From Actinokineospora inagensis DSM 44258 (GTDB lineage: Bacteria; Actinomycetota; Actinomycetes; Mycobacteriales; Pseudonocardiaceae): a stretch of DNA of 64,000 bases. The notes beneath the pieces were generated by a model. That model saw only the letters and a list, made by a program, of their open reading frames with translations. It made no database searches and was not told the DNA's origin. This document shows, piece by piece, positions 73-40,365 of the stretch. A program made the position numbers and the translations under genes. The DNA is taken from positions 15,043 to 79,042 of the forward strand of contig NZ_KI519521.1 of NCBI RefSeq assembly GCF_000482865.1. Reading direction: 5' to 3'. Position 1 is the first letter of the stretch. The number at the start of each line of letters is the position of its first letter.

Positions 73-88
73 TGCCCCCTCACACCAA

Positions 89-302
89 GATCAACCGAGA
101 ACAAAGCCCCCAAATACACAGCCTAAACGACCCCACCGACAAGATCGCCCAGCCGACCAAGAACCATGATCAACCAGCTCCAAAGCCCCCGAATACACAG
201 CCTAACCAAGCCCACCGACAAGATCCGCCCACCGACCGACAACCATGATCAACCCACCGCAAAGCCCCCCAAATACACAGCCTGGACAACCCCACCGACA
301 GT
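89..302. repeat. Tandem repeat, 79-bp period, about 2.7 copies
   Basis: Units begin at 89, 168 and 247, each with GATCAACC followed by AAAGCCCCC(G/A)AATACACAG and then CCCACCGACA. The spacing is exactly 79 bp twice. The third unit breaks off near 302 at a GTCCAGTGTGG sequence. The core AGCCCCCGAATnCnCAGCCTA also resembles the terminal arms of the elements at 19109-20244, which suggests a related repeat family. Together with the 72-bp repeat this fills the 413 bases before the first gene. No promoter was identified. Confidence 0.85.
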
Positions 303-13793: not shown

Positions 13794-13844
13794 GGGTGCT
13801 GACACGCCGTGGTGGTCCTCACTCCGGGTCCGCGCCCGGATCGG

Positions 13845-13950
13845 TGGGCAGCGGGGCCGAGTGTCCTGGCTCCCGGGTTGACCCCGGTCACAGTGGCGGG
13901 ACCGCACCGGACTCACACCGGTTTCCCTCGCACACCCTGCTGATCTGTCT
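13845..13950 (-). promoter_or_regulatory. Cobalamin (AdoCbl) riboswitch upstream of chlID-cobO-cobB
   Basis: Read on the minus strand, this leader shows the conserved cobalamin-riboswitch blocks in order: GGGAAACCGGTGTGAGTCCG, then GCGGTCCCGCCACTGTGACC, then GGGAGCCAGGACAC. These are the standard P3-P6 core and the closing segment of the class. It ends about 50 bases before the chlID ATG, so translational control, or termination in the 13795-13845 gap, is expected when AdoCbl is abundant. The boundaries are approximate. Confidence 0.9.
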
Positions 13951-14046
13951 GGAGTTGGCCCAGGCATCGTCGCAGACCAGGGGGTCCTGGCCAAGTCGTG
14001 GGCGAGTGGGGTGGCCGGGATCTCGAGTCGGTTAGGGTCTGGGCCC

Positions 14047-19095: not shown

Positions 19096-19108
19096 CCCCG
19101 GATCGCCC

Positions 19109-19264
19109 TGAGCAGCCCCCGAATCCCAGCCTACTGACCACCACCGACACCGCCCTCGGACTCGATCGGCGGTTGTCCACAGTGCGCAGGGTTGTCCACA
19201 GCGCCCCGCTGAAGGGTCCGGACTTGTCGGTAGCCACCACTAGGCTGGATTCGGGGGCTGCTCA
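19109..19264. repeat. Inverted-ended repeat unit A with DnaA-box-like nonamers
   Basis: A 156-bp element bounded by TGAGCAGCCCCCGAATCC on the left and its inverted counterpart ending GGGGGCTGCTCA on the right. The arms continue imperfectly inward (CAGCCTACTGACCACCACC against the inverted CCTAGTGGTGGCTACC). The centre has two direct TTGTCCACA nonamers at 19173-19181 and 19192-19200, which match the established actinobacterial DnaA-box consensus. A linker of about 229 bp separates it from unit B, and that linker is itself repeated between units B and C. Confidence 0.88.
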
Positions 19265-19493
19265 GCCCGGTTCGATCTTGGCGGCGTTCTATTCGACCTT
19301 GCCCCCGGCCGAGCCCTGGCACGGCACCTGACCGACGCAGGGTGACCGGGCTGATCCCCTTGCTGGACACCCGCGTCCACGAAGCCCCCCTTGCTCTCCG
19401 CACAGCCACCTCCACTGCGGCAACCCCCCGACGAGTACGGATCGGCCTCCTTCGCCGCGATCAGCCCAAACCACCGCTCCCTGAAGATCGCTC

Positions 19494-19648
19494 TGAGCAG
19501 CCCCCGAATCCCAGCCTACTGACCACCACCGACACCGCCCTCGGACTCGATCGGCGGTTGTCCACAGTGCACAGGGTTGTCCACAAGGCTCCGCTGAAGG
19601 GGCCGGACTGTTGGTAGCCACCACTAGGCTGGATTTGGGGGCTGCTCA
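19494..19648. repeat. Inverted-ended repeat unit B with DnaA-box-like nonamers
   Basis: A second copy of the 19109-19264 element, 155 bp, nearly identical including both TTGTCCACA nonamers (19558-19566 and 19577-19585). Together with the 239-bp linker that follows (19649-19887), which matches the linker after unit A (shared blocks include CCGATCTTGGCG-like, TATTCGACCTTGCCCC and GGTGACCGGGCTGATCCCCT), it makes a direct tandem duplication with a period of about 385-394 bp. Confidence 0.88.
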
Positions 19649-19887
19649 GGCCGGTCCGATCTTGGCGGGACGAGCGCATCAGTTCTATTCGACCTTGCCC
19701 CAGCCGAGCCCCGGCATGGCACCTGACCGACCCAGGGTGACCGGGCTGATCCCCTTGCTGGACAACCCCACGAAGCTCTCCATACTCTCACCGCGGCCAC
19801 CCGCCTCTGCTGCGGCAAGCCCCCGACGAGTTCGGATCGGCCTCCTTCGCCGCGACCGGCCCAACCACCGCTCCCTGAAGATCGTTC

Positions 19888-20244
19888 TGAGCAGCCCCCG
19901 AATCCAGCCTACCGACCACCACCGACCCCTCGGACTTCTCAGCGAGCATCCTGTGGTCGGCTCCACCCTGTGTGGACAACTCCGTTCCCGGCTGGCTGCA
20001 CCCTCTTGCGGGCAGACCCGTTGCCGATGGGCGTGCCTCCACCTGTGCGTGCCGATCCGTTCTCGACGGCGGGCCGGGCCGGCGTGCTTCCGCCCGTGTG
20101 GGCTGATCCGCTGCCGACAGCGGGCCGGCGCACCTCTACCCCTGGCCTGCGGTTGTCCACAGCGGGTGGGGCTGTCCACAGGGTGCTTGCTGAGGGGGTC
20201 GGAGGGTCGGTAGCCACCACTAGGCTGGATTCGGGGGCTGCTCA
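19888..20244. repeat. Enlarged repeat unit C with DnaA-box-like nonamers
   Basis: A third copy with the same terminal arms but 357 bp long, carrying about 200 bp of extra sequence between them. It has TTGTCCACA at 20153-20161, its complement TGTGGACAA at 19971-19979 and a variant CTGTCCACA at 20172-20180. The extra sequence is GC-rich with repeated GATCCG(C/T)T and CGGGCCGG blocks and no recognised gene. The remaining 220 bp to the next start (20466) hold the promoter region of the hydrolase gene. Confidence 0.8.
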
Positions 20245-20465
20245 GGCCGGCTCGATCTTGGCGACGCGATGGCCGTCGCGAGCGAGGTGCGGGAAATCCC
20301 GTTGGCGGTCGGTGGCGGGCGCTGCTACCTTTCCGGTTGCCGTGCGAGTGAGCGAGGGAGGTGGTACCTGTGAACGTATCGACATGGGTGCTCCCCTCTG
20401 GGGTCACGGTCGGGCGGTAGGTCGTCCGGGAGCGCCGTTCACGAGCACTCCCGAAAGGCACGACC

Positions 20466-21197
20466 ATGCGATTCACTTCCGAACAGCGCCTCGACGATGG
20501 TGTCGTCGAGCGCGAGTTCACCCTCGGCGACATCCCCGGCGTCCTGTGGACGCCCCCGTCCCCCTCCGCGCCGGTCCCGTTGATCTTGCTCGGTCATCCC
20601 GGCGGGCTGCGCAAGATGTACCCCCGACTGGCGGCTCGGGCGCGGGGTTCCGTGGCGGCTGGCTACGCCGCGGCCACTATCGAGCTACCCGGGAGCGGCG
20701 ACCGCCCCCGGTCCCCGGCCGCCGAGGAGGCCCGCGCCGACCTGCGTCGGGCGTTGGCGGCGGGTGGCCCGGTCGACGACGAGATCGTCGACCGGCTGGT
20801 CCTGCCGTTGGTAGAGGCCGCGGTTCCGGAGTGGCGGGCTGCTATGGATGTCCTGCTCACGTTGCCCGAGATCGGCGGCCCGGTCGGGTTCGCGGGCGGG
20901 GTGATCTCCATCGGGGTCCGGTTGGCGGTGGTCGAACCGCGGATCTCGGCGGCCATCCTGTTCGCCGGGAGTTTCGTGCCCCGCGCCATGTTCGACGAGG
21001 CCCGGCAGGTCACCATCCCGCTGCAGGTCCTGCTCCAGTGGGACGACGAGGGGAACGACCGCCAACAGGCCCTGGACCTGTTCGACGCCTTCGGCTCCAA
21101 GGAAAAGACGCTGCACGCCAACATGGGCGGACACACCGGCGTCCCCGAGTTCGAGGGGGACGCCGGGAACCGGTTCTTCGCCCGGCACCTGAAGTGA
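20466..21197 (+). CDS. Alpha/beta-hydrolase family protein (dienelactone-hydrolase-like)
   Basis: A 243-residue cytoplasmic alpha/beta hydrolase. It shows LILLGHPGG (oxyanion-hole strand), a nucleophile elbow reading VISIG instead of canonical GxSxG, a probable acid Asp in LLQWDDEGND and a probable catalytic His in GGHTGVP. Similar short hydrolases are common in actinomycetes, and their substrate is unknown. The ATG start at 20466 follows GAAAGGCACGACC. It is a single gene ending at a perfect 15-bp-stem hairpin shared with the convergent cobIJ gene. Confidence 0.8.
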   Translation: MRFTSEQRLDDGVVEREFTLGDIPGVLWTPPSPSAPVPLILLGHPGGLRKMYPRLAARARGSVAAGYAAATIELPGSGDRPRSPAAEEARADLRRALAAGGPVDDEIVDRLVLPLVEAAVPEWRAAMDVLLTLPEIGGPVGFAGGVISIGVRLAVVEPRISAAILFAGSFVPRAMFDEARQVTIPLQVLLQWDDEGNDRQQALDLFDAFGSKEKTLHANMGGHTGVPEFEGDAGNRFFARHLK

Positions 21198-21201
21198 GAG
21201 C

Positions 21202-21236
21202 CCGCCGCTGTCGAGGGTCTGCCTCGACAGCGGCGG
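21202..21236. terminator. Bidirectional hairpin between hydrolase and cobIJ
   Basis: CCGCCGCTGTCGAGG (21202-21216) pairs perfectly with 21222-21236 around a 5-base loop GTCTG. It lies 5 bp after the hydrolase stop and 2 bp before the cobIJ stop on the other strand. There is no long T-run, as is usual for actinobacterial terminators. Confidence 0.85.
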
Positions 21237-21237
21237 C

Positions 21238-24489: not shown

Positions 24490-24630
24490 CAGCGATGGCA
24501 GGTGGAGGAAGCCGGTGCGAATCCGGCGCGGTCCCGCCACTGTCACCGGGGAGCAGACCTGAACCAGCCACGGCAACCGCCGGAAGGCCGGGCGAGCGTC
24601 GATCCGGGAGCCAGGACACTCCGGCCGTCG
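24490..24630 (+). promoter_or_regulatory. Cobalamin (AdoCbl) riboswitch upstream of cobN
   Basis: The plus-strand leader carries the class blocks in order: GAGGAAGCCGGTGCGAATCC, then GCGGTCCCGCCACTGTCACC, a variable arm, and GATCCGGGAGCCAGGACACT. It ends about 40 bases before the cobN ATG. In between, GGGGCGCGGACCCC can pair close to the AGGAGG ribosome binding site, consistent with translational shut-off by AdoCbl. The boundaries are approximate. Confidence 0.93.
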
Positions 24631-28266: not shown

Positions 28267-28500
28267 CTCCCCAGCGGGGTTTCGGCGCTAACCAGATGGT
28301 GCTGCCGAGTGGTCGAAATCGCCAGTCTCGCGCGGCGTGTCGTCGTCCTGCGCCAATCAAGCACGACGACACGCCAGACGCGGCTTCCCCACCACCAGCG
28401 TCGACAACCACCCAACCACTCAGGGATCACTGCCCGCTTCACACGAGCCCATCACCCTGCTGTCAACCGCCACTGACCCCCGGCCGCCCCCAACCCAGCC

Positions 28501-28610
28501 CCCACCCTGCCCGGGGGGCGTCCCCGATGCCAGTCTATCGGTCTTTCATGATCGACAGGGTCGGTCGTGGTGGGCTGTGGGCGGCCGAAGAGGGTGTGGA
28601 CAACTCGCGG
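28501..28610. repeat. Dispersed repeat family 2, copy 1
   Basis: Shares with 30611-30721 and 40204-40315 a left block, CCCACCCnnCCCGGGGGGCG with TCCCCGA(G/T)GCCAGTCTA(C/T)CGG after it, and a right block, GTGTGGACAACTCG. The right block contains TGTGGACAA (28595-28603), the complement of the DnaA-box nonamer. The middle is more variable but keeps ATGATCGACAGG and GGGCTGTGG. It is non-coding and lies between convergent or tandem genes. Confidence 0.85.
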
Positions 28611-28654
28611 CGGATCGGCGGCGTGCGGGGTGGTGAGCGCACCATGCTGGTCGT

Positions 28655-30033: not shown

Positions 30034-30844
30034 ATCTCCGCACTGCCGGGCGCCACCACACGGATGAGCTCGCCTGCCGCCCCTGACCCAGCCTGGACAC
30101 CGCGCACGCGAGCCTCGACACCGTGCACGCGAGCCTCCGGCGCCCTACCTCGCCCATCTCATCGCGGCTCACCCCGGTCCTCTGGCTGCGGCTCCCTTCA
30201 TGCCTCCCGGAAAGCCGCCTGATCCGGCCCTCGGCTTCGCCGCCACCCAGGTCCACACAGGGGCCCGCCCACCCAAATCGCCGACCGATCACCACGCCGG
30301 CGTCATAGGCGATCCCGGCCACCAGCGCACCCCACGCCGCCAGCGCGCACATCACCCACTCTTGGGCGCCCGCAGCCATTCCCCGATCGCCGTGATCACA
30401 CGCACCCCCGACGGCGACTGCGACCGCAGGCATCGCGACCGGCGGTCCCCCACACCCCGCGGATCGGTGCCCCGACCGACAATCCCGCAGGCCAGCGCCG
30501 CGCCGATCAGACACCGGAATCCACCGCAACAGCAACCGGAGCAGCAGACTCAGACATTCACAAGATCAACCAGAGCCCCCAGCCAGGCGATCCGACCCCC
30601 AACAGGCGGCCCCCACCCGTCCCGGGGGGCGTCCCCGAGGCCAGTCTACCGGTAAGCCATGATCGACAGGAGTTGTGTCGGTGAGCTGTGGACGACCGGA
30701 CGGAGTGTGGACAACTCGGGCCCAGACCCGTAACCAGCGTGGATTCCCGGCCGGGTCAAGCGACCGGTTCCGCTGAGTCGGGGATCACCGGGACCGGTGG
30801 GGCGGTCGGGATAGGTTGGTGGGAGTCGCTCACTGGAGGTGTCC
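30034..30844. other. Intergenic region upstream of FO synthase
   Basis: About 810 bp. It holds the second copy of repeat family 2 (30611-30721) and the fbiC promoter region. A minus-strand open frame at 29915-30535 contains a hydrophobic stretch but also low-complexity repeats (RLACTVS, RLACAVS) and no family signature, so I do not call it a gene. A GATCAACCAGAGCCCCCAG segment at about 30564 resembles the 79-bp tandem repeat at the start of the window. Confidence 0.45.
30611..30721. repeat. Dispersed repeat family 2, copy 2
   Basis: The same left block (CCCACCC, CCCGGGGGGCGTCCCCGAGG, CCAGTCTACCGG) and right block (GTGTGGACAACTCGGG) as copies at 28501 and 40204. It contains TGTGGACAA at 30706-30714 and a near match, CTGTGGACG, about 20 bp earlier. 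Like copy 1 it keeps CCATGATCGACAGG in the middle. It lies about 125 bp before the fbiC start. Confidence 0.85.
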
Positions 30845-40126: not shown

Positions 40127-40203
40127 CCCGCACCACCCGTTCCGACCGAACCCACCCACCCCGCTTGACAGCAGGCGCTCCCCACCACTACCCCTCCGGG
40201 CGG

Positions 40204-40315
40204 CCCCCACCCTTCCCGGGGGGCGTCCCCGAGGCCAGTCTACCGGCTTGGCGGGGTCGGTGGTGGGGTGGCGGTTGGGCTGTGGGCGGGTCGAAGGGTT
40301 GTGGACAACTCGGGC
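40204..40315. repeat. Dispersed repeat family 2, copy 3
   Basis: The third copy of the family, with the left block (CCCCCACCCTTCCCGGGGGG, GAGGCCAGTCTACCGG) and the right block (GTTGTGGACAACTCGGG). The right block holds TGTGGACAA at 40300-40308 inside a perfect palindrome TTGTGGACAA-like context. It lies between the pirin gene and the lipoprotein gene, in a 252-bp gap. Confidence 0.85.
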
Positions 40316-40365
40316 CGAGTGGATGACTCGGGTTGAGTTGGGTGTGGGTGGGCGGCTGGGCTCAG

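Follow-up and report, generated by a model that had tools for sequence, protein, structure and literature searches.

The promoters most similar to the locus described here are those of the RecA-NDp type, for which the mycobacterial recA P1 is the example. Their published consensus is tTGTCRgtg-8nt-TannnT (PMC5656591). The activator of these promoters is PafBC, which engages the -26 motif jointly with the housekeeping RNA polymerase in response to single-stranded DNA (PMC11804915). The present locus is an array at positions 19109-20244 of a stretch of 64,000 nucleotides from Actinokineospora inagensis, called the window below. Its most visible elements are copies of the nonamer TTGTCCACA, which we take to be the actinobacterial DnaA box. 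The original prediction for this array had suggested a DnaA-titrating locus analogous to datA, or a repeat that hitchhikes on DnaA.

The array and its promoter-like arms

The three units and the inverted arms that had been proposed, located at about 19.09-20.27 kb, were both confirmed by sequence comparison. The period of about 390 bp given for them holds only for the left arms, which are 385 and 394 bp apart; as unit 3 has the greater length, the spacing of the right arms is 384 and 596 bp. The TA-to-TA distance is 310 bp in unit 3, compared with 108 and 107 bp in units 1 and 2. The expected number of boxes, two or three per unit and at least six altogether, agrees with the count. Six exact copies of TTGTCCACA are found in 19109-20244, starting at 19173, 19192, 19558, 19577 and 20153 on the plus strand and at 19971 on the minus strand, and one box with a single mismatch starts at 20172. 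Units 1 and 2 have two boxes each and unit 3 has three. The whole window contains nine exact boxes, against 0.19 expected from 100 dinucleotide-preserving shuffles (the largest number in any of them was two), and all nine are located inside modules of the kind described below.

The organization of the arms was not noticed in the original prediction. As read from the sequence, each array arm has a core that resembles a promoter and keeps a constant spacing to the boxes. Read outward, the arm consists of TGTCGG-N10-TAGGCT, followed by GGATTCGGGGGCTGCTCAG or a close variant. Upstream of TAGGCT, the boxes start at a distance of approximately 48 and 67 bp, and TGTCGG-N10-TA lies in between. In units 1 and 2, one box pair is common to two outward promoters, at 48-49 and 67-68 bp from both TAs, and the boxes are in reverse orientation relative to the left TA. 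Unit 3, the longer one, has a separate box or boxes for each arm. The left arm of unit 1 points outward, toward the 3' end of the SNF2 gene. The features of the array are as follows:

19096-21237, no strand: extra DNA, array and 243-aa ORF, between the SNF2 gene and the methylase gene
19128-19149, minus strand: unit 1 left arm, TGTCGG-N10-TAGGCT, TA at 19133; exact pattern match
19173-19181, plus strand: unit 1 DnaA-type box, common to both arms; right TA at 68 bp, left TA at 48 bp
19192-19200, plus strand: unit 1 DnaA-type box, common to both arms; right TA at 49 bp, left TA at 67 bp
19225-19246, plus strand: unit 1 right arm, TGTCGG-N10-TAGGCT then core GGATTCGGGGGCTGCTCAG, TA at 19241; exact pattern match
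19513-19534, minus strand: unit 2 left arm, TGTCGG-N10-TAGGCT, TA at 19518; exact pattern match
19558-19585, plus strand: unit 2 box pair (19558-19566 and 19577-19585), 48 and 67 bp from both TAs
19609-19630, plus strand: unit 2 right arm, TGTTGG (one mismatch), TA at 19625; from the sequence
19866-19986, minus strand: unit 3 left module, box 19971-19979, GGTCGG (one mismatch), TA at 19911
20146-20266, plus strand: unit 3 right module, boxes 20153-20161 and 20172-20180, GGTCGG (one mismatch), TA at 20221

The 243-aa ORF adjoining the array, at 20466-21197, has no Pfam match. Its DNA relatives sit elsewhere in other genomes of the genus, which suggests that it arrived with or next to the array. 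Outside the array, the window contains the following elements:

84-300, minus strand: 79-bp tandem repeat (2.7 copies), exact promoters TGTCGG-N10-TAGGCT at 120-141 and 199-220
28492-28612, minus strand: type C module in the cobN-hemerythrin gap, TA at 28537, box 28595-28603
30603-30723, minus strand: type C module in the DoxX-fbiC gap, TA at 30648, boxes 30706-30714 and 30687-30695 (one mismatch)
40197-40317, minus strand: type C module, TA at 40242, box 40300-40308

The 79-bp tandem repeat contains no exact TTGTCCACA, and its core belongs to a type that is frequent in A. diospyrosa. The window also contains two cobalamin riboswitches (Rfam RF00174), at 24505-24621 on the plus strand and 13838-13954 on the minus strand; one of them precedes the CobN gene.

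Likeness to the recA damage promoter

The pattern TGTCRG-N10-TANNNT is present exactly in three of the six array arms, and the remaining three have one mismatch in TGTCGG. The pattern occurs five times in the whole window against 0.08 expected. All five copies lie inside modules, three of them being array arms and two belonging to the tandem repeat at 84-300. Contig C2 of the same genome carries two adjacent WYL genes, of which the second matches PF19187 (HTH_PafC) at 5.1e-43 and the first codes for a WYL/WCX protein. None of the NCBIfam models names either protein of this pair, and the preceding gene codes for a PAP2/lipid kinase protein, not for pafA.

The same layout is found at recA. A box with up to two mismatches is located at -47/-48 upstream of recA in 16 of 16 genomes of the genus and in five of nine others (raw count). 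A second box at -66/-67, with the same tolerance, was found in four of the 16 genus genomes, the A. inagensis genome not among them, and in six of the nine others. Seven of these nine non-genus genomes have at least one box and two have none. The promoter motif of recA in the genus is CGTCGG or CGTCAG, which is found only by a relaxed pattern. A scan of the named genomes of the collection for the full architecture gave at least 119 stretches holding at least 148 matches. Among the 148 matches listed, 33 are upstream of recA and one is upstream of radA of Microtetraspora (TIGR00416). The other 114 matches listed are all in records of A. diospyrosa or Actinophytocola, and eight of them have under 300 bases downstream in the locus. 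The identity of RecA is confirmed by TIGR02012 for the A. inagensis gene and for one Amycolatopsis gene. By eye, the recA of Amycolatopsis alkalitolerans (L227) appears to have an intein-like insertion; the open frame is 729 codons long.

There is good support for the likeness of the array to promoters and for the layout that it has in common with recA. In the literature searched, we found no description of DnaA-type boxes as a control element of the recA damage promoter. Searches for PafBC together with 'DnaA box', for 'recA promoter', 'DnaA box' and 'mycobacteri' together, and for Actinokineospora with repeat and DnaA gave no such combination.

Dispersed modules in the genome and in relatives

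The units of the array are not isolated. A search of the A. inagensis genome with one unit gave 76 matches at E<=0.001, the array's own included. The type A core, that of the array arms, gave 87 matches when two mismatches were allowed, of which 15 are type B (reversed-pattern control, one), and the type B/C core pattern gave 160 with up to one mismatch (control, zero); the two sets partly overlap and are unmerged, and a few of the 87 may be chance matches.

For the geometry counts, modules were collected from the fetched loci by the core alone, not by the boxes. A box (up to two mismatches) starts between -75 and -41 in 42 of the 50 A modules and in all 14 B and all 45 C modules, and the box count at the median offset in the same modules is zero. 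The box positions peak at -66/-68 and -47/-49 in types A and C, 19 bp apart, and type B has a single box at -59. The original prediction had been ready to give way if the region proved to be a common repeat with random nonamers. The repeat is indeed common; its nonamers are not random, since the A and C boxes stand at about -67 and -48 of the core. The spacers of the modules are variable in sequence and nearly constant in length, and identity in the flanks is at chance level (0.28-0.30). The gap between TGTCGG and TARNNT is 10 nt in 28 cases in the A. inagensis loci and in 28 in the A. diospyrosa loci, with two cases or fewer for each of the other gaps listed. Exact GTCGG at -15 is present in 21 of 50 A, 5 of 14 B and 7 of 45 C modules, that is, in 33 of 109 overall. 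Because this is a minority, many modules of this genome may not be PafBC promoters.

All-against-all comparison of the ORFs of 106 loci revealed no flanking or recurrent neighbour gene family. A gene family travelling with the modules was rejected, since the large ORF clusters of these loci overlap the module itself. A few B and C copies have longer downstream stretches in common. Three loci (L061, L062 and L108; two B, one C) have several hundred downstream bases in common, with shifted self-matches in steps of about 60 bp that suggest a degenerate repeat; Tandem Repeats Finder detected no tandem repeat in L062. DUF222/13E12 was discarded as the source of the repeat because the genome has no DUF222 match. 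No Rfam family matched the modules at its gathering score, and one match at E 2.7 was below its cut-off.

The position of dnaA was determined as had been proposed. The assembly consists of 97 contigs, and contig C9 carries the sole DnaA_C match among them, while the window is on C35. This excludes the array as oriC. The gap downstream of dnaA has one exact box and three boxes with one mismatch, and one more exact box is located just upstream of the gene. The proposed count of copies was also made, here and in relatives. Paired boxes (N12-14 allowed) number 98 in the A. inagensis genome, with zero for the reversed-pattern control, and from 2 to 214 in each of the 15 other genomes of the genus; reversed-pattern matches are zero in all 16. 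Nine genomes of Pseudonocardiaceae from other genera have 66, 28 and 0-6 paired boxes, and 16 other genomes of the order have 0-4, with one reversed-pattern match in one of them.

These numbers could be explained if the boxes bound DnaA and the dispersed modules formed a diffuse datA-like sink tuning replication timing, with the promoters incidental. The array, with six exact boxes and one near box, is richer than the gap downstream of dnaA, and the genome has 98 paired boxes. However, the boxes are locked to the promoter core and occur at the same position in recA promoters, and a copy number varying from 2 to 214 within one genus would be odd for a timing device. We regard titration as rather improbable. 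A single datA-like locus does not agree with the dispersal of the modules or with the equivalent boxes of recA promoters. The nearest of the earlier readings is the repeat that hitchhikes on DnaA, to which it should be added that the repeat carries a recA-type DNA-damage promoter.

The common cores differ among species. The core pattern TAGRCTGGNNTCGNGGRC has 132 exact matches in the A. inagensis genome; of 199 other genomes of the order, six contain it once. A. diospyrosa (G210) and the genomes G202, G192 and G200 have different common cores with the same box geometry. The idea of a strictly species-specific core is weakened by the A. diospyrosa-type core at 84-300 of the window and by the presence of TAGRCTGGNNTCGNGGRC in these six genomes.

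Orthologous gaps were compared at three places. The ends of the SNF2 and tetrapyrrole methylase genes overlap in G202, A. diospyrosa and G206. The corresponding gap is 2.1 kb in A. inagensis, with the array and the 243-aa ORF, and 648 bp in G201, with a module of another core; without a module it is 202 bp in G205 and 185 bp in G209. The DoxX-fbiC gap is 857 bp in A. inagensis, 37-137 bp in 11 of the 13 relatives read and 696 bp, with modules, in G207; the arrangement in G014 is different. The cobN-hemerythrin gap has modules in A. inagensis, G206 and G201 and none in G202 or A. diospyrosa. The four module-bearing gaps read in relatives measure 648-844 bp and far exceed the length of a module, which suggests that the moving unit may be larger. 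No target duplication was seen by eye at the three gaps, compared with distant relatives, and no sharp module ends were seen.

Module loci of A. diospyrosa, G202 and G201 contain a palindromic element of 144-148 bp, with ends GCTCGATGGGGTGGACCTGTTTTG and its complement (for example, L253:6710-6853). It is absent from the fetched A. inagensis loci and has no Rfam match. In A. diospyrosa (L253, L249, L231 and others), one to three tandem modules and the palindrome make up cassettes of about 0.9 kb, some of which are 74-85% alike in the best pairs.

The arms might also be the terminal inverted repeats of an ordinary MITE, cut by a transposase, with an accidental likeness to a promoter. This would account for the 16 outward-facing type A arm pairs, 106-651 bp apart, in the A. 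inagensis loci, and for orthologous gaps that are empty in some species and filled in others. However, the inspected B and C modules have a single arm or stand in tandem, without outward pairs, and the modules of A. diospyrosa are tandem, not inverted. In addition, the box distances match those of recA, which is no transposon end. We consider an ordinary MITE unlikely.

Genomic context, proposed mechanism and known systems

The modules are mostly intergenic, with 3 of 50 A, 0 of 14 B and 3 of 42 C modules overlapping a gene called by a gene caller trained on the window. Convergent gaps hold 29 of 49 A modules and a divergent gap holds one, modules in the same gap being counted singly and not independent, while the 88 background gaps of at least 200 bp include 22 convergent and 24 divergent ones. 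For types B and C, with 3 of 11 and 12 of 34 modules in convergent gaps, there is no clear enrichment over the 22 of 88 of the background. The value for A. diospyrosa is 39 of 54 modules, with a background of 20 convergent among 51 gaps of at least 200 bp in 30 module-bearing loci, and for Actinophytocola it is 4 of 10.

The neighbour downstream of the predicted start is antisense for 35 of 49 A, 8 of 13 B and 27 of 35 C modules, and the predicted A start sites are a median of 57 bp from the opposing stop codon. Of the 21 distinct genes downstream in the sense direction, 20 were scanned (a 72-aa one in L128 was left out) and no DNA-repair theme was found; five of the 20 have no Pfam match. A downstream repair regulon was rejected on this basis.

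Base composition changes at the TA. A C-rich strand gives way to a G-rich one in B and C modules, with the skew passing from -0.24 just upstream to +0.61 at +50..+100 in B (n=13) and from -0.19 to +0.48 in C (n=40), and then falling to about 0.2; the rise in A (n=50) is smaller, from -0.03 to +0.24, and flanking genes contribute to all these values. Downstream of the start, the typed consensus strings have folding energies of -22 to -23 kcal/mol for B and C and of -8.9 for A. The skew and folding are compatible with transcription from the B and C modules. Identity downstream of the -10 is 0.88-0.99 at +6..+25, where it is largely fixed by the retrieval pattern, and 0.87 at +25..+45 in C modules.

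Such transcripts could form a functional antisense or small-RNA network, in which damage-induced module RNAs regulate the opposing neighbours. The prevalence of antisense neighbours in all three types, the short distance of the A starts from opposing stop codons, the conservation downstream of the -10 (with the reservation on +6..+25 just given) and the GC-rich hairpin of the typed B and C consensus strings are in favour of it. However, the positions of the modules differ between species, no neighbour gene family recurs among the 106 loci, and selection against unwanted gene activation would leave the same bias. This explanation appears unlikely to us.

On balance, we consider that the array units are members of a dispersed, gain-and-loss family of recA-type promoters, probably a selfish one. 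Each unit would be an outward-facing pair of promoters of the recA P1 kind (RecA-NDp, PafBC-dependent) around DnaA-type boxes. The modules would form a mostly non-coding family that has multiplied in several Actinokineospora species, with dominant cores differing by species; the array belongs to type A, and types A and C mostly point against the downstream neighbour. After DNA damage, PafBC loaded with single-stranded DNA may let the housekeeping RNA polymerase open the TAGGCT -10 via the TGTCGG motif. DnaA, or a different factor that recognizes this nonamer, could read the boxes at -48/-67, which would then serve as an upstream control element, as perhaps they do at recA. The outcome would be short non-coding or antisense transcripts. 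What maintains the family is most likely its own spread, with tolerance at sites where no gene is driven, and not a function at each site.

A broader proposal is tentative. The -48/-67 boxes may control the recA damage promoter throughout these actinobacteria and so wire DnaA, representing the replication state, to PafBC, representing single-stranded DNA. Actinokineospora may have multiplied this promoter into tens to hundreds of copies, forming a mobile non-coding network that fires on damage and whose back-to-back promoters are able to share one box pair. Binding of DnaA to the boxes, if it occurs, would link the recA promoter of many such bacteria to the replication initiator. The dispersed copies can serve as natural replicates of the promoter, with constant positions that stand out against free spacers. 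With more than 100 modules, and the exact damage motif in a third of those examined, damage might trigger widespread non-coding transcription, which would be invisible in gene annotation.

It is useful to compare the modules with the known systems. Similar to actinobacterial DnaA boxes at oriC and in the DnaA box cluster of S. coelicolor, they contain the nonamer TTGTCCACA in clusters; however, their pairs, 19 bp apart, are tied to a promoter core and dispersed by tens to hundreds, and, unlike at oriC, dnaA is on a different contig from the array. As in datA and DARS of E. coli, the array is a non-coding DnaA box cluster, but the modules are multi-copy, have a promoter core and are gained and lost between species. 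They resemble MITEs and REP-type intergenic repeats in being mostly non-coding and dispersed, type A mostly in convergent gaps and with inverted arms. They differ from these in that their constant parts are the promoter and the boxes, the spacers vary in sequence but not in length, and no ends were found. In comparison with RecA-NDp/PafBC promoters, the modules have boxes at -48/-67, while the consensus cited above is given without upstream boxes, and here many copies are located away from repair genes. However, the TGTCGG-N10-TAnnnT motif and its spacing are those of the mycobacterial recA P1, and, as in RecA-NDp/PafBC systems, the genome has a PafC gene with a neighbouring second WYL gene.
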